A stretch of 20,951 bases of DNA. It comes from a virus. Each line of letters opens with the position of its first letter. The first letter of the stretch is position 1. Shown here piece by piece: positions 2,098-17,394 of the stretch. The notes beneath the pieces were generated by a model. It saw nothing but the letters and a program-made list of their open reading frames with translations, did no database searches and was not told where the DNA came from. The position numbers were made by a program, and so were the translations under genes. The stretch covers positions 1-20,951 of the IMG/VR virus record IMGVR_UViG_3300017751_000314; one strand, written 5' to 3'.

Positions 2098-2802
2098 ATG
2101 GCTTTACCAGTATTGAATGCTGCGAAGTATAAGACAGTTATACCATCACTAGGACAGGAAATAGAATATAGACCTTACCTAGTAAAAGAAGAAAAGATCT
2201 TAATGATTGCATTAGAATCAAAAGATCAAAAGCAAATTTTAACAGCTTTCAAGGATGTAATTAAAGCATGTGTATATGACGAAATCGATGTTAATCGATT
2301 AGCGATGTTTGATTTAGAAGCGTTATTTTTACAATTAAGAGGAAAGTCGGTTGGTGAGTCGACAGAGATAAAGATTAAGTGTAGTCATTGTGAAGCTGAA
2401 AATGATCAGGAAATTAATTTTGACGAGATTAATATGCCAGTTGTTATAAAGCAAAATAATGTGATTGCTCTTACTGATGATGTAGGTGTTACATTAAGTT
2501 ATCCATCAGTAGGTGGATTAGAAAAACAAGATTTGAAAGCCAGTGGTATTGATCAGGCTTTGGCTATGATTATTAGTTGTATTGAATCAATTTACGACGC
2601 AAACAATGTATATTCTGCAAAGGATGAAGGTCCTGCTGCAATTAAAACGTTTGTTGATTCTCTAAATAGTCAGCAGTTTAAATTACTTACGGAATACTTT
2701 GAAAATATGCCGGCAGTAACTTATGATATGAAGTTTGATTGTAATAAATGCGGTATGAAAAATGAAACAGAGTTAAGAGGCTTTGACAATTTTTTTGGTT
2801 AG
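2098..2802 (+). CDS. 26: Baseplate hub assembly protein (gp26-like)
   Basis: A 234-residue protein of the T4 baseplate family (gp26 type), thought to help build the central hub. Recognisable parts are IEYRPYLVKEEKILMIALES near the N-terminus, LFLQLRGKSVGE (77-87) and two CxxC pairs, C95/C98 (CSHC) and C215/C218 (CNKC). Together these could bind one zinc ion, one pair in the middle and one close to the C-terminus. The start has a good ribosome site (AGGAG at about 2087-2091). The last codons AAT TTT TTT GGT TAG contain the heptamer T TTT TTT at 2790-2796. A -1 shift there bypasses the stop and continues into the gp51-like segment, giving a 297-residue product. Confidence 0.8.
   Translation: MALPVLNAAKYKTVIPSLGQEIEYRPYLVKEEKILMIALESKDQKQILTAFKDVIKACVYDEIDVNRLAMFDLEALFLQLRGKSVGESTEIKIKCSHCEAENDQEINFDEINMPVVIKQNNVIALTDDVGVTLSYPSVGGLEKQDLKASGIDQALAMIISCIESIYDANNVYSAKDEGPAAIKTFVDSLNSQQFKLLTEYFENMPAVTYDMKFDCNKCGMKNETELRGFDNFFG
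2790..2796 (+). promoter_or_regulatory. Candidate -1 frameshift slippery site, T TTT TTT
   Basis: Seven T residues sit so that the gp26 frame reads T TTT TTT, a form that fits the X XXY YYZ rule for -1 slippage. The two slipping codons are F232 and F233, with the gp26 stop two codons later. The -1 frame then runs TGG TTA GGC without a stop to 2990. A six-pair stem (2797-2802 with 2839-2844, one G-U pair) with a long loop is the only downstream structure I found, and it is weak. Confidence 0.55.
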
Positions 2803-2990
2803 GCCTCTCTCACGATACCTTATACAACCACTATAAGACTAACTTTGCGATGATGCAACACCATGGATATAGCTTGACAGAGCTCAATGATATGGTGCCA
2901 TGGGAACGTGAAATATATGTTTCGTTATTACAAGAACATATTAAAGAAGAAAACGAACGACGTAAAGCAGAACAAGCAAGGAGTAAATAA
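2796..2990 (+). CDS. 51: gp51-like baseplate hub assembly segment, -1 frame of gp26
   Basis: A 64-codon frame encoding a short protein like the gp51 proteins of T4-like phages, recognised by MMQHHGYSLTELNDMVPWER followed by a charged helix ending in ARSK. gp51 is needed for hub assembly. The first ATG is at 2850 and would give 46 residues, but it has no ribosome-binding site. Coding-like sequence (LSHDTLYNHYKTNFA) extends upstream of it right to the end of gp26 with no ATG, GTG or TTG start in frame. This suggests it is made as a -1 frameshift extension of gp26, like the split tail-assembly chaperones of other phages. The stop TAA overlaps the ATG of the next gene (TAATG). Start at 2796 assumes frameshifting; use 2850-2990 if it is translated alone. 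Confidence 0.65.
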   Translation, partial: WLGLSHDTLYNHYKTNFAMMQHHGYSLTELNDMVPWEREIYVSLLQEHIKEENERRKAEQARSK

Positions 2991-3316
2991 TGTCAGAAGA
3001 AGTAAAAGAAGCATTCCATCCAGCAGATACTAATGGTGATGGTAAAGTAAGTGCAGCTGAAGAGGCAATGTATCTTGAGTTTAGACGTAAAGAACTCGAA
3101 GATGCGGATGCTATGCGAGATGCACAAAGAAATATGACTTGGTTTGCACTAGGTGGATTGCTTCTTTATCCTTTCGCTGTAGTATTGGCATCATTAGCAG
3201 GTTTAGATCAGGCTCAAAGTACATTAGGTGATATGGCTCCTACGTACTTTGTTGCTGTTGCTGGTATCGTTGCTGCATTCTTCACGTCACAAGCAATAAG
3301 TTCTAAAAAGAAATAG
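2990..3316 (+). CDS. Small EF-hand membrane protein, unknown role
   Basis: A 108-residue protein. Residues 13-24 (DTNGDGKVSAAE) fit a complete EF-hand calcium loop: D13, N15, D17, G18, V20, S21 and E24 are all in place. A charged helix follows (about 25-48). Then come two hydrophobic segments, about 50-72 and 82-102, joined by a short polar loop, and a KKK end. That predicts a two-helix hairpin in the cell membrane with both ends on the same side, probably cytoplasmic. It overlaps the stop of the gp51-like segment by one base and has an AAGGAG site 6 bases ahead, so it is co-expressed with tail genes. The size and two helices recall a holin, but nothing else supports that. No signal peptide is visible. 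Function unknown. Confidence 0.75.
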   Translation: MSEEVKEAFHPADTNGDGKVSAAEEAMYLEFRRKELEDADAMRDAQRNMTWFALGGLLLYPFAVVLASLAGLDQAQSTLGDMAPTYFVAVAGIVAAFFTSQAISSKKK

Positions 3317-3325
3317 GTATAAGTT

Positions 3326-5113
3326 ATGGCTGAAGATAATCCAATAGAAGACATAAAGTTAAGTATGAAACAGCTTGCTGCTGGCTTTGGAGGTAAAAAT
3401 CTAAAGGAAGGCGGTAGTGGTGGAGTTGCGATTCAAGCATTGGCTGCAGAAATTGCAGAACAAAACAAGGTAGCTCAAGATAATAAAACTGATTTTGAAA
3501 GAAATAAGCTTTTAATGGATCTTGTATTGTCGACAGAAGCAGCTGATAAAGAAGGAAAAGCAAATTCACTTGCTTTAAGGTCACAGTTTATAGAATCACA
3601 ACAAAGATTAGAAAGAGCTATCGAAAGAGGTGATGCTGAAGCTACTCAATTGGAAAGAGATAATCAGGCTGAAATATTAGCTAATGCTGAGACAGAAGAA
3701 AATCGAAGAGAAGCAAATAAAGCGATTCAAGATCAATCTAATTTGCTAGGGAAAATATCCAGTGGTATTGGCGGTTTGGTTGGCTTCGCGAAAAAGAATG
3801 CCGTGGCTATTGGTGGTGGTTTATTGGCTGGTCTTGCAATCTTTGCGCCTGAACTAATGGAAAAATTAGTTGGTAGAGTAATTGAAGTATTAGGCTCTGC
3901 ATTTAAAATTGTTCAGTCTTTATTGGATGGAGATATCGAAGGCGCACTCGAGCTCTTTAAAGGTGAATGGAAAGCATTTACTGGTGCATTTATATTATTC
4001 TTTGGTGGTACAATTGTAAAAACATTGAAGGGTGTATTTAAAGGATTTAAGGCTTTAAAGAAGGCAGTACAAACATATAAAATGTTCTTAGCAACAGAAT
4101 ATGCTGGCAGTATGTTTGCTCACTTTAAAGATATGATGAAAAATCTCGGTGGCAAACTTATGAAAATTGTCAAAGGCCTCGGTAGAGCTGCAAAAATATT
4201 TTTTAAGTTTATTACATTACAGTACGTTCCACAATTTTTAACTCACCTTAAAGATATGACCAAAAATCTTGGTGGTAAATTTATGAAATTGCTAAAGGGT
4301 ATGAGAGCGGCCGCCATCGCATTTAGAGCCTTTATGATGCTTACGTTCTTCCCAGCTATGGGTGCAGCGTTAATGGGTATGGCTACATCACTATTAGCAA
4401 TACTTGTTCCCTTTGCTATTCCTATTGCAATCGGTTTAGCAATTGCAGCAGTGGTTGGTCTTATAGCTCTTGCAATGATTAAAATGAGAGATGCATTAGG
4501 ATTTGCTTCAGTCTTTGATCTTATAACATTGACGTTAGCCCATGCTAAAGATGGATTTGCTCACTTAAATAATTTCCTTGCTGATATAGTTGATTGGGTT
4601 GCTGATATTATTGAAAAAGGCGGTAAGTTTATAGGTTTCGATTTTGAGCTTCCTCGAATAGAAAGATTAGCTACAGATAATATGGCTAAGACCATGGTCG
4701 AGTTAAAAGAGAAAGGTCGTGAGCAAAGGGAAAAGGAAGCCGAGGAAGAAAGACTAAGAAAAGAAAATCCAAATGCACCACCGGCCGGTGGCGGTGGAAT
4801 GTTTGGTTTCGAAATGCCTGATTTTAGTGCAATGATGGGTGGCGGTGATAATGCAGGCGCAACTCCTGGTCTGCCCGCTGGTTTAGACTTTGCTTCATCT
4901 CCAGGTACAGGTGATGAAATAGACTACGAATCACAAATGAATGCATTAATGCAAGAACAAGCATCTAATGCTGCGGCATCAACTGCTCCTCCAGTAGTTG
5001 TTAGTCAAAAAGGTGGCACTGTAACTAATAATAATACAACCAATAATAATAGTAGATCTTACAAACGCCCTCGTGCTTGGGGATCTCACGAAATTAATAG
5101 CTCATACGCATAG
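3326..5113 (+). CDS. 29: Tape measure / tail-length protein (gp29-like)
   Basis: A 595-residue protein, nearly the length of T4 gp29 (590), which is threaded through the tail tube and sets its length. The call rests on size, architecture and place just before the tube cap gene, since the sequence itself is poorly conserved. Residues about 40-140 are charged and coiled-coil-like, and 155-175 form a Gly/Ala-rich hydrophobic helix. Residues 263-344 are two copies of a 41-residue repeat, and about 345-387 is a long hydrophobic stretch that could span a membrane, as in tape measures that enter the cell. The charged 450-480 region leads into a Gly/Pro/Asn-rich tail ending KRPRAW. The start follows the previous stop by 9 bases and lacks a strong ribosome site. 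Confidence 0.7.
   Translation: MAEDNPIEDIKLSMKQLAAGFGGKNLKEGGSGGVAIQALAAEIAEQNKVAQDNKTDFERNKLLMDLVLSTEAADKEGKANSLALRSQFIESQQRLERAIERGDAEATQLERDNQAEILANAETEENRREANKAIQDQSNLLGKISSGIGGLVGFAKKNAVAIGGGLLAGLAIFAPELMEKLVGRVIEVLGSAFKIVQSLLDGDIEGALELFKGEWKAFTGAFILFFGGTIVKTLKGVFKGFKALKKAVQTYKMFLATEYAGSMFAHFKDMMKNLGGKLMKIVKGLGRAAKIFFKFITLQYVPQFLTHLKDMTKNLGGKFMKLLKGMRAAAIAFRAFMMLTFFPAMGAALMGMATSLLAILVPFAIPIAIGLAIAAVVGLIALAMIKMRDALGFASVFDLITLTLAHAKDGFAHLNNFLADIVDWVADIIEKGGKFIGFDFELPRIERLATDNMAKTMVELKEKGREQREKEAEEERLRKENPNAPPAGGGGMFGFEMPDFSAMMGGGDNAGATPGLPAGLDFASSPGTGDEIDYESQMNALMQEQASNAAASTAPPVVVSQKGGTVTNNNTTNNNSRSYKRPRAWGSHEINSSYA
4112..4357 (+). repeat. Tandem 123-bp repeat inside the tape measure gene
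   Basis: Two head-to-tail in-frame copies, 4112-4234 and 4235-4357, each encoding 41 residues. The first contains HFKDMMKNLGGKLMKIVKG and the second HLKDMTKNLGGKFMKLLKG, and each continues with an Ala/Phe-rich helix. A more worn third copy may lie just before them, around FKGFKALKKAVQTYKMFL. This looks like an old internal duplication. Confidence 0.75.
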
Positions 5114-13149: not shown

Positions 13150-16100
13150 ATGGCTCAGCAAAGTTTAAAAAATCTAGATTCATTTTCAAGAGGTTACATT
13201 GAAGACGTAAGGTCGAAAGTAGATTTTGATACTACATTAAGAGCGCGCTCAACGGAAACTGTAGTTAACTCAACTACTATTACTTTGACGTCTCAACCCG
13301 TAAGCGTTCTTGACGGAAGTATTCCAGCCGAATTGGTAAATCCAATAGTCGGTAAAGTAATGTCAGGTACTGGCATTGAGGGTGTTCCTCGAGTTACTGA
13401 TATATCAGATGATCGTTTAACGATTACTTTTGATCAGCCACAAACGTTTGGTGATGTTGATGGATTAGCTATTACCTTTAGTGATACTAATTCCGGTATA
13501 GATCAGTATGAATTAACTGGATCTGCTAAGTCGAGATCTAAGGAAGATATTCGTATTGATCAATTGATTCCAGAAGAGCTGTTAGAGTATGCAACTAATT
13601 CAGCTTATGGTGGCAATGATACTGGTGGCATACGTACGTTTTTAGAATCTTATTATAAGTTTATGAACTTGGAAGAGTTTACTTATAAAGATGAAGAAAT
13701 GTTCGAAGATGTTGTTATAGACAACCAAGCAGCATTTAGAATTAATGTTCCGAATAAATTTTTCCAAAGAAATCTAGTATTAGCTGCAAAGTTTTTCGAT
13801 GCTGATGGATTGCCTTTATTAGTTGGTAACCAAGACGGTACACCCATTAGAAGTGGAGACGTTCTATTATTAGATGATACATCTCGATTGACTGTCGGCG
13901 AAAGCTATCAGATTGTAGATATAGGAAATGGAACAACTGAAAACATTGCTACTGGTATAAACAATATAACTGATAGAGAAAACGAAGAATATTTTTTGGA
14001 TGATATCTTTGTTGCAACTGATGTCGGTACAGCATACGATGCTACTCGAGGTTCTACTCCCGTAGGTGTTCAACTACTTGTATATCCATCAGTTGTTGAT
14101 GATATAAAAGAAAAAAATATTAGTATTAGTAATGCAAATAAGTTACCTGGTAGATTAGCTGATTCTGCAGAACCAACTGGTAGAACTGTAAACATATATG
14201 GACTATCACCAAGATTAAATAAACGAAAGATCACAATGAAGACTTTCGTTTATAACTATATTGATTCTGGTCCGTCATACCGTTTAAACACTATAGAAGA
14301 TTCTTTAAATCTAAATGAAGCTCAAGAAGAATTTCTTGATTTAATGCAGAAAGAAATCGCGCCTTCATTGGATAAAACTTCACCTGTTAATAAAAGAGCT
14401 ATATACGAAAAGATAATTGATTTCTATAAGATTCGAGGTTCTTTTGAATCGATTGAAACATTCTTTAAGTTATTGTATAATGAACAAGAAGTTCAAGTTC
14501 AGTATCCATGGGATAATACTCTTAAACCTTCTGCCGGTTTGTACGATCCAAAGTCAGCAGTTCAGGCCAACTATAATGAAACGTCTGTTGTCGAATCATC
14601 TAATAACGAGAATAACGATTTATTTGGTAAATCAGTCTCAGTAAGTGGTGATTCTTTTGCTGCTGGTGCGCCAAAAGAAGATTCAATCGGTGTCAATGCT
14701 GGTTCAGTATATGTATTTACGACAACTAATAAAGGACAATCATACACTGAAGAGCAAAAGATTTCGCGGACAATAACTGATAGTGATACTAATATTCACC
14801 ATGACCAATTTGGTCGGTGTGTATCATTAGATGGTGACACATTAGCAATATCTGCTCCAATAGATGAAACTACTGCAGGAGTAACTAAAACGGGTTCTGT
14901 CGAAGTCTGGAATCGTAGTGTAAATTCAAGTGGCAACAACGTTTGGAACTTTACTACTAAAATTGTTCCGCCGACCGGAGCTAATGGTGAAAGGTTTGCC
15001 TTTGGTAACGAATCAGTTTCTTTAAGTGGTGATTATCTCGCAATCGGTCATGAAGGGTTTGATGCAGATCCGGATAATTTCCCAAAAGGCGCTGTAGCGC
15101 TATATAAAAAGGCTGGTACTACATATTCATTACTACAAACAATACGAGCTCCGGGTAAATTAAATTCAGGAAGAGCTGGAAATATTGGTTTTGGCACAAC
15201 GGTTGTACTAAAAGGAAACTACCTCGTTGTTTCTTTTGAAAATTATTCGACGTCTTCAGTAGTAAAAACAGGTCGAGTAGTTGTTTATAAGAAAGATGCT
15301 ATAAGCGGATTATATGTAGAAGATGGAATTTTATCCCCAGTAGAAGATGTATCAAATCAAACATTTGGTTACGCCATTGATATTACTAATATTGAAAATG
15401 GAACACCTCGAATTGCTTTAACTAGCCGTGATAATCCGTATCATACAGTATATATTTTCGACAGGGATGCTGTTAATATTGATAATGCTGTCGTTACAGA
15501 TAGTAAGTCGTGGCATACTATACATTCTATTCCAAGTTATGTTGTTCCTTCTATAAGAGATAATACCAATTATGGTATAATTGTCCGATTAAGTGGTGAT
15601 AACTTAATTATTGGTGAGCAAGGATTCGATGATGGCGCTATAACTGATAATGGTAAAGTGTATCATTATGAATATAATGTTGATACACAACTTTGGGATC
15701 CAAAATTACAATATAGAGGCGATAAGACGGTTGTTGATGCTAACTTTGGTTTTGCCTTAGATTTATCTGATGACGACAAAGGTTATTTGATTATTTGTGC
15801 ACCAGGAAAACCAAACGGCAGTGGTAATCAAAAAGGTTTCGTAAGAACATATACACGTCCTGTATTATCTGGAACATTTACGACAAGTTCAGGCTTTTTA
15901 TCAGAGAAAAATATAAGAGTACATGACTCTGATTTTTATCAGAAATTCTCTTATGTTGTAAAGGTTGGTCGTAACCTATCACAATGGAAAGAACCATTCG
16001 ATAAGTTAGTGCATCCTGCAGGATTTAAATACTTCGGTGAAGTTTTACTTGTATTACAAGCAGTGCGTAATGTATTAGGCGATACTAATCCTAATACAAG

Positions 16101-17394
16101 CTTAGGAAAAGGCGATGATATAGAAGTATATGAAAACTCATATAGCGCATCACCTGCATTCAGAAAAACGTTGTCGTCAATGCCAGGTGTTCAGCCAGGT
16201 TATATTGGTATCGAAGATATAGGTTTATTAATAGAAGCAATTGCTTCGAGCTTTGGTATTATTGGTGTTGCACGACCGAATAAAAACGCAAAGATATCAA
16301 TGAAAACTGTTTCGAGCACTGGCGGTTTATCATTGATATCGATTCCTGAGCCTGGACATGGTTATCCTTCTGTACCTGCTATTACATTAGGTGGAGATGG
16401 ATCCGGAGCAACTGCAACAGCAGAAATAAATAGCAAAGGCGAAGTCAATAGAGTAGTTCTTACTGGCGGACATACTACATTCGATTTCTCTGGTATTGCT
16501 GCTGATGATGCTCGAGCAGCAGGAACTTATACTGCTGTAACAACTGGTGGTAGCCGATCTTCTGGTAGTGGTGCTAGTGGTCAGGTAACAATCGTTGTAA
16601 CTGACGGTGGTAGTGCTGCAACGAATGGTGTTATATCAAGTATTACTTCAACTACAACTGGTAGTGCATACGAAGTTGGTGAGATTATTACAATACCTGG
16701 TTCAGTTATGGGTGGTGCTGCAATATCATTTACAGTTGCTAGTGTTGGTACAGGATATAGTGTAGGTGGCACAACCACTGCAATACAAACTATTGCGCAG
16801 GAGTCTGCAGACGATGGTTTGACTGGCGATAATGAGATTGTTCAATTTAAAATCGGTAAACTTAATTCAACAACCTTAGGTTTAGACTTAGTCGGATTAA
16901 ATAATAAAGAGCACACTTCAACGCCAACAATTATAATCTCTCCACCAGATGCTCGTGCTCATGATGGTAAACCTTTATCAACGAATGTACAAGCTACTGC
17001 TACTCTTACACGGAACAGTACTACTGGCCATATTACAGGATATACGATTACAAATCCTGGTAATGGTTATTTAAATGATGCAACGATACGAGTAGAAACT
17101 CAAACTCAAAAGCATGTTCCAAATTATATACACAAGAAGATTATACCAGCTAATCACGATGACAACATCACAGCTACACTGCCAGAGAATAGTTACTTCG
17201 CACGTAAAGATTACGATGTAAAAGAAAGCTCTGCATTTTTAAGAAATAAAAAATTCCAAGGGAATTATCAAATTAACATGTTTTCTAATATTGCAATAGA
17301 AGATATTAACACAACAACTGATGATGGAACTACTATAAATAAATTAAACATTCAAGCACATTTATCAGACGCAATTACAGAAACTACACTATAG
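13150..17394 (+). CDS. 7: Baseplate wedge protein gp7 with inserted FG-GAP propeller
   Basis: A 1414-residue gp7-type wedge protein (T4 gp7 is 1032), the central long wedge subunit. An N-terminal segment (LDSFSRGYIEDVRSKVDFDT) is followed by a beta module at about 35-112. Helical core segments are GIRTFLESYYKFMNLEEFTY and AIYEKIIDFYKIRGSFESIE, then TFFKLLYNEQEVQVQYPWDN. Residues about 488-905 hold seven FG-GAP-like repeats, each beginning near FG, followed by a V-x-L/V-x-GD turn and ending in a G-x-V-x-V/Y strand, predicting a seven-bladed beta-propeller. The gp7 core resumes at FLSEKNIRVHDSDFYQKFSY and VHPAGFKYFGEVLLV. The last third (about 1050-1320) is Gly/Thr-rich beta repeats such as GHGYPSVPAITLGGDGSGAT. 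It follows gp6 by 7 bases with no good ribosome site. Confidence 0.82.
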   Translation: MAQQSLKNLDSFSRGYIEDVRSKVDFDTTLRARSTETVVNSTTITLTSQPVSVLDGSIPAELVNPIVGKVMSGTGIEGVPRVTDISDDRLTITFDQPQTFGDVDGLAITFSDTNSGIDQYELTGSAKSRSKEDIRIDQLIPEELLEYATNSAYGGNDTGGIRTFLESYYKFMNLEEFTYKDEEMFEDVVIDNQAAFRINVPNKFFQRNLVLAAKFFDADGLPLLVGNQDGTPIRSGDVLLLDDTSRLTVGESYQIVDIGNGTTENIATGINNITDRENEEYFLDDIFVATDVGTAYDATRGSTPVGVQLLVYPSVVDDIKEKNISISNANKLPGRLADSAEPTGRTVNIYGLSPRLNKRKITMKTFVYNYIDSGPSYRLNTIEDSLNLNEAQEEFLDLMQKEIAPSLDKTSPVNKRAIYEKIIDFYKIRGSFESIETFFKLLYNEQEVQVQYPWDNTLKPSAGLYDPKSAVQANYNETSVVESSNNENNDLFGKSVSVSGDSFAAGAPKEDSIGVNAGSVYVFTTTNKGQSYTEEQKISRTITDSDTNIHHDQFGRCVSLDGDTLAISAPIDETTAGVTKTGSVEVWNRSVNSSGNNVWNFTTKIVPPTGANGERFAFGNESVSLSGDYLAIGHEGFDADPDNFPKGAVALYKKAGTTYSLLQTIRAPGKLNSGRAGNIGFGTTVVLKGNYLVVSFENYSTSSVVKTGRVVVYKKDAISGLYVEDGILSPVEDVSNQTFGYAIDITNIENGTPRIALTSRDNPYHTVYIFDRDAVNIDNAVVTDSKSWHTIHSIPSYVVPSIRDNTNYGIIVRLSGDNLIIGEQGFDDGAITDNGKVYHYEYNVDTQLWDPKLQYRGDKTVVDANFGFALDLSDDDKGYLIICAPGKPNGSGNQKGFVRTYTRPVLSGTFTTSSGFLSEKNIRVHDSDFYQKFSYVVKVGRNLSQWKEPFDKLVHPAGFKYFGEVLLVLQAVRNVLGDTNPNTSLGKGDDIEVYENSYSASPAFRKTLSSMPGVQPGYIGIEDIGLLIEAIASSFGIIGVARPNKNAKISMKTVSSTGGLSLISIPEPGHGYPSVPAITLGGDGSGATATAEINSKGEVNRVVLTGGHTTFDFSGIAADDARAAGTYTAVTTGGSRSSGSGASGQVTIVVTDGGSAATNGVISSITSTTTGSAYEVGEIITIPGSVMGGAAISFTVASVGTGYSVGGTTTAIQTIAQESADDGLTGDNEIVQFKIGKLNSTTLGLDLVGLNNKEHTSTPTIIISPPDARAHDGKPLSTNVQATATLTRNSTTGHITGYTITNPGNGYLNDATIRVETQTQKHVPNYIHKKIIPANHDDNITATLPENSYFARKDYDVKESSAFLRNKKFQGNYQINMFSNIAIEDINTTTDDGTTINKLNIQAHLSDAITETTL
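14617..15867 (+). repeat. Seven FG-GAP-type protein repeats in gp7
   Basis: Encoded repeats start near residues 490 (DLFGKSVSVSGD), 552 (DQFGRCVSLDGD), 615 (FAFGNESVSLSGD), 678 (IGFGTTVVLKGN), 737 (TFGYAIDITNIENG), 806 (NYGIIVRLSGD) and 864 (NFGFALDLSDDD), about 60 to 70 residues apart. Several have a GAP-like turn (AAGAPKED, AISAPIDE, ICAPGKP). The repeats are divergent in DNA. Canonical calcium-binding DxDxDG loops are not evident. Confidence 0.75.
17334..17341 (+). promoter_or_regulatory. Possible late promoter TATAAATA upstream of gp8
   Basis: An exact late-promoter element inside the last codons of gp7. The predicted start at about 17347 leaves a 57-base leader before gp8. Because it lies in coding sequence and the motif is expected roughly twice by chance on this strand, support is weaker than for those at gene starts. 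Confidence 0.35.

Follow-up and report, generated by a model that had tools for sequence, protein, structure and literature searches.

gp26 and gp51 of a T4-like virus record as probably one tail assembly chaperone gene with a predicted -1 ribosomal frameshift

Are gp26 and gp51 two separate baseplate proteins, or are they two products of a single gene? The question is raised by a 20,951-base virus record (the window), which carries a T4-like tail module. By gp26/gp51, its closest named relatives are marine T4-like phages, now Kyanoviridae. The gp26 of the relatives is annotated as a baseplate hub subunit, and the phrog_634 family, which the gp51 part of the window matches (E 4.5e-29), is labelled 'baseplate hub assembly catalyst'. 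In tail chaperone genes, -1 frameshifting is classical. The analyses suggest, with a probability of about 0.93, that positions 2098-2990 form a single tail assembly chaperone gene, predicted to be decoded in two ways through a -1 ribosomal slip. This reading is based on a slippery heptamer, its phase and conservation, the coding selection past it, the missing start, the homology to T4 gp51, and a chaperone-like fold, each taken from the sequence or from a structural model.

All features described here lie on the plus strand. The short form, gp26 (TAC-N; 2098-2802), has 234 aa and matches PF12322 (E 9e-59) and phrog_150 (E 4e-61). Its 3' end reads AAT TTT TTT GGT TAG. The heptamer T TTT TTT (2790-2796) is in phase with the gp26 codons, and the 0-frame stop TAG (2800-2802) lies two codons past it. 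After a -1 slip, the codons would be TGG TTA GGC and onward through the TAA at 2988-2990. This extension (2796-2990) encodes 64 residues, the C-terminal domain of the long form (TAC-NC; 'gp51'); the predicted fusion has 297 residues, and its predicted junction peptide across the slip site is GFDNFFWLGLSHDTLYNHYK. The -1 frame opens at 2787 at the earliest, preceded by a TGA at 2784-2786. The positions and lengths given for gp26, the heptamer, and the two products in a preliminary description of this DNA were all correct on recomputation. The same description had called the -1 sequence gp51-like. The extension does match phrog_634, but of T4 gp51 it corresponds to no more than the C-terminal ~50 residues, with which it is collinear.

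Relatives were drawn from IMG/VR and from annotated phage records, and yielded 232 distinct gp26/gp51 junctions. An in-phase T TTT TTN occurs within the final 15 gp26 codons of 229 junctions, in most of them at a distance of 10 nt from the stop. All 232 have the gp51 part in the -1 frame, and this frame stays free of stops for 90 nt or more beyond the gp26 stop, or as far as the available sequence extends. Elsewhere in gp26, the in-phase heptamer was found at 16 of 41,760 codon positions, or ~0.006 expected per 15 codons. Kinship inflates the raw counts; the 229 junctions correspond to 68 groups that are <75% identical over 90 nt. The residue before the heptamer is of six kinds (S, N, D, A, T, and H), and its codon ends in T without exception; Ser is encoded there by AGT and TCT only, the other four Ser codons being absent. 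The first Phe codon of the heptamer is TTT throughout, and the second codon is TTC (148), TTT (80), or TTG (1). Because the preceding residue varies yet its codon is always NNT, the constraint acts on the nucleotides and not just on the Phe-Phe pair. In E. coli, ribosomes slip efficiently on U_UUU_UUY (PMC4066793); the slip rate on the ribosome of the window's host may differ. The heptamer had been described as fitting the -1 slippage rule, with a comparison of relatives proposed as a check. The fit stands, and in cyanophages, pelagiphages, and farther T4-like phages the T-run is conserved together with its phase, as is the absence of any gp51 start that has a ribosome site. A scan with nt-1 gp26 as the query recovered only two relatives.

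The slippery heptamer is absent in three distant phages, BX-1 (L095), K444 (L096), and phiA8-29 (L098), which are of the Ackermannviridae and the Vibrio K444 type. Their gp51 is also in the -1 frame, and two of the three have a TAATG overlap at the gp26 stop. These phages may use another slip site (possibly GTTTTT in BX-1) or coupled reinitiation.

The junctions also bear on two other explanations of the broken frame. Homopolymers are common error sites, and an indel in the T run, whether by sequencing error or in a decaying gene, could have split one ORF. However, the 232 distinct junctions, which come from isolates and metagenomes, all show the same frame break, and most of them are T6C rather than T7, with purifying selection past the break; no intact single-frame form was seen in close relatives among the compared junctions. 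Since the comparison across relatives repeats the frame break, this explanation can be regarded as excluded, its probability being close to nil. Alternatively, the RNA polymerase, rather than the ribosome, might slip on the T run, and the same fusion product would be expected. The window does contain seven Ts, and UUUUUUU runs have been noted as possible sites of transcriptional slippage (PMC4066793). Polymerase slippage is nevertheless very unlikely because 148 of the 229 junctions read TTTTTTC, with six Ts only. The invariant phase to the gp26 codons and a conserved Shine-Dalgarno (SD)-like element at ribosomal distance also argue for slippage of the ribosome.

A ribosomal slip would bring the -1 frame into translation with no start codon of its own, and the alternative is that gp51 is a separate small protein, made from the ATG at 2850-2852 or by reinitiation past the gp26 stop. 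The GenBank records of relatives annotate gp51 as its own ORF, and in some relatives an ATG overlaps the gp26 stop or follows it closely. An ATG lies within six codons past the slip in 48 of 229 relatives, where a separate start is conceivable, though a reasonable ribosome site accompanies it in only one. No ATG, GTG, or TTG was found upstream of 2850 in the open -1 frame of the window. The SD score at 2850 is -1.5 kcal/mol, whereas the scores of 14 other start codons range from -2.7 to -8.0. Across the relatives, mean SD pairing is -1.31 kcal/mol at the first gp51 ATGs, -1.24 at internal Met codons, and -4.84 at gp26 starts. The first ATGs are no better than internal Met codons, and the ATG at 2850 was judged to be an internal Met rather than a start.

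Coding selection was analysed in 121 junctions (93 distinct sequences) without ATG, GTG, or TTG in the first 17 post-slip codons. Counted by codon position of the -1 frame, 634 differences are at the third position, versus 220 and 159 at the other two. The dN/dS of the start-less stretch (2796-2849 in the window) is 0.12 in the -1 frame and at least 1.7 in the other two frames. Both other frames contain stops in every sequence tested, and the -1 frame is free of them in all. Purifying selection and openness are thus confined to the -1 frame, and therefore the start-less stretch is read in that frame, with no start inside. The preliminary description had noted that protein-like sequence continues upstream of 2850, with neither an alternative start nor a ribosome site there, and both observations are upheld. 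A separate gp51 is therefore highly improbable: the 18 codons before the ATG are under protein-level selection in the same frame, the slippery codons would be left unexplained, and T4 gp51 runs through the region as one protein.

Signals around the heptamer are consistent with stimulated ribosomal slippage. Pairing to the 16S rRNA tail shows a sharp peak just 5' of the heptamer, with a mean of -5.6 kcal/mol over 229 junctions, and a purine motif ends 8-10 nt 5' of the heptamer in 213 of them. Codon choice leans toward the purine motif; Glu is encoded by GAG in 75% of cases there, versus 26% elsewhere. Proven stimulatory SDs lie at 6-17 nt, and a rule for such elements is available (PMC4066793). 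By this rule, 146 of 229 junctions carry a stimulatory SD, compared with 8.7% of control positions. The window element AAGAGG (2775-2780), which ends 9 nt before the heptamer, passes the rule and is inside the range. Such a proposed stimulator, with its conserved spacing, probably helps the slip.

Downstream RNA structure was examined by permuting codons among relatives, with the amino acids kept, and folding codons 2-24. Over the relatives, the real folding energy is 3.5 kcal/mol better than the permuted one (z -11.7). In upstream control stretches, which are shorter, the difference is 0.1-0.6 kcal/mol, and z drifts to -2.9; therefore, only the size of the excess counts. The window alone is unremarkable (z -0.9). 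Some lineages have a clear stem from ~6 nt past the heptamer (S-CAM7 and P-SSM2). In the cyanophage lineages L092, L099, L103, L107, and L147, the stem GTATGGCTCA/TGAGTCATAC starts at this distance, which is classical for stimulators. The register of the stem after the heptamer varies between cyanophage lineages. The clade of the window instead has a smaller stem farther downstream, supported by covariation; in the window it would be the weak hairpin CTTATA/TATAAG (2819-2837), an uncertain candidate stimulator. RNAalifold gave no consensus structure for 28 relatives because the stems shift register between lineages, and the codon-permutation test was used for this reason. For the window itself, the analysis does not confidently single out one downstream hairpin. 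Downstream structure perhaps helps the slip, with the window's own structure being weak. AGAGGC (2776-2781) is a perfect inverted match to GCCTCT (2803-2808), but this pairing was rejected as a candidate; a ribosome on the heptamer covers it, and relatives such as L033 do not share it.

Comparison with T4 links the predicted products to a known pair of genes. Pairwise tblastn with these queries missed T4 gp26 and gp51, and profiles alone detected both. The window gp26 and the T4 homologues share PF12322 and phrog_150. Both T4 gp26 and T4 gp51 match PF12322, and T4 gp51 has the C-terminal domain in addition; its last ~50 residues correspond to the 64-residue part of the window, and its other ~200 residues are a gp26 paralogue. 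A fusion profile was built from 223 predicted fusions. Its alignment with T4 gp51 (E 5e-13) is collinear, spans positions 24-283, and crosses the slip site at its Phe. With T4 gp26 (E 3e-27), the alignment stops at the slip site. T4 gp51 thus corresponds to the predicted fusion over its whole length and shows that the long form exists as an actual gene, T4 gp26 corresponds to the short form, and the pair predicted from one gene here would therefore be the two-gene pair of T4. The gp26/gp51 fusion put forward in the preliminary description gains support from this collinearity. The T4 case differs in that the two genes lie on opposite strands, as they also do in Aes508, and in that the gp26 end has no slippery heptamer. 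T4 gp26 ends in GLKEFFELL*, and it is not slippery because the Phe pair is encoded by TTC TTT.

A sequence search among solved structures gave nothing useful. An AlphaFold model of gp26 (pLDDT 89.7) was also compared with solved structures. Its N-terminal domain matched best to 3fgx (Z 7.6), to 2ob9, which is the tail assembly chaperone of HK97 (Z 7.5), and to YqbN 3klu (Z 7.0), a middling Z over just the first ~95 residues. These three agree mutually and stand apart from the following matches (Z 4.9 and 3.2). Foldseek gave a probability of 0.91 with an E of 0.26. The model thus provides moderate evidence for an HK97-type chaperone fold in the N-terminal domain.

The upstream neighbour (1379-2077) is a tail tube-type protein, with matches to PF06841 (E 7.5e-7) and phrog_3629 (E 2e-35). 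The protein at 3326-5113 had no significant match in the Pfam/PHROG profile searches, and it is placed in the tape-measure slot by position only, from synteny with the pelagiphage HTVC008M, where the equivalent slot holds a tape measure gene (phrog_58, E 8e-12). The order is thus the tail tube gene, the chaperone gene, a 108-aa ORF, and the tape-measure slot, the last by positional identity. In the product of the 108-aa ORF (2990-3316), two hydrophobic segments come after an EF-hand-like loop (DTNGDGKVS). Its EF-hand Pfam matches are weak and below the cut-off in both the window and HTVC008M, and of 212 relatives, 31 carry the loop motif downstream. Farther along the window, a 1414-aa protein (13150-17394) combines a baseplate-wedge match (PF23786, E 4e-7) with FG-GAP repeats (PF14312, E 8e-25), which are unusual for a T4-like structural protein.

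In lambda (gpG/gpGT) and P2 (E/E+E'), one gene likewise yields a short and a long product, through a -1 slip shortly before the first frame ends. The likeness extends to the HK97 chaperone fold of the N-terminal domain, and it may extend to the position between the tail tube and the tape measure, the latter assigned here by position. However, there is no detectable sequence similarity, and the present gene has a U_UUU_UUU/C slip site, a larger first domain (gp26, 234 aa), and a conserved upstream SD-like element. The locus is very probably a chaperone pair of the gpG/gpGT type, rather than a hub subunit and a 'catalyst'. Most ribosomes would terminate at the TAG at 2800 and yield the 234-aa short form. 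A minority would slip by -1 on T TTT TTT, probably aided by AAGAGG 9 nt upstream and perhaps by RNA structure downstream, bypass the stop, and append 64 residues to give the long form. Low-level slippage would then fix how much long chaperone is made relative to the short one. If the lambda gpG/gpGT model carries over, the tape measure protein might be coated by both forms, tail tube subunits might be recruited by the additional domain that the rare long copies carry, and both forms might depart before the tail is completed. We infer that slippage occurs at some rate, that the stimulators act on it, and that the products take part in assembly. E. coli dnaX-type signals also combine a slippery heptamer with an upstream SD-like stimulator. 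The dnaX gene is unrelated, and its strong hairpin close past the slip site is absent in the window and present in some relatives. The lambda steps behind the analogy (tape measure coating, tube recruitment, and release) are summarised in PMC5009743.

According to the Atkins review, chaperone frameshifting is widely conserved 'except T4' (PMC5009743). For phages of the Adele type (Vandenendeviridae/Andersonviridae), a conserved -1 frameshift was likewise argued from an open -1 frame and a poly-T motif, in another phage family and with the motif GTTTTT (PMC12846349). Two papers cite Vladimirov et al. 2022. In the PRFect paper, the citation concerns T4-like phages whose short gene is accompanied by a separate fused one; in that on phage Adele, it concerns the poly-T slippery sequences of T4-like TAC-N genes (PMC12846349). 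Cyanophages, gp26, and gp51 are unmentioned in the PRFect paper. On these second-hand citations, frameshifting in some T4-like phages is probably already published. The chaperone arrangement of the lambda and P2 type, which the preliminary description had transferred to a T4-like phage, is in line with this literature as far as it is quoted, and with the HK97 fold match. Vladimirov, Gautam and Davidson are reported to have identified the tail assembly chaperones of T4-like phages in 2022 (Virology 566:9-15), in a work whose title argues for a mechanism other than frameshifting. As far as the second-hand citations go, the mechanism and its occurrence in T4-like phages (the latter probably published) are known, and the present member, the breadth, the stimulators, and the unmarked annotation are added here.

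Taken across the T4-like superfamily (cyanophages, pelagiphages, schizo-T-even, and rhizobial relatives), we lean towards frameshifting being the ancestral and prevailing state, driven by a conserved composite signal of SD-like element, slippery U6Y, and downstream RNA structure; T4 and its close kin would then have lost the slip site after a duplication. The exception reported for T4 would not extend to its marine relatives, and the locus would offer a natural case of a protein ratio that one lineage sets by frameshifting and another by having two genes. In hundreds of genomes of cyanophages and pelagiphages, the 'baseplate hub subunit' and 'baseplate hub assembly catalyst' are very probably one frameshifted chaperone gene, and the annotated gp51 proteins would then be truncated or missing. 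T4 and Aes508 apart, slippage is marked in 0 of 25 annotated record regions examined. In these 25 records, gp51 is a truncated ORF, has an arbitrary ATG start, or is missing. In the last case, S-CAM1 (L102), S-PRM1 (L103), and AS-zj (L105), the gp51 part is present in the sequence and wholly unannotated.
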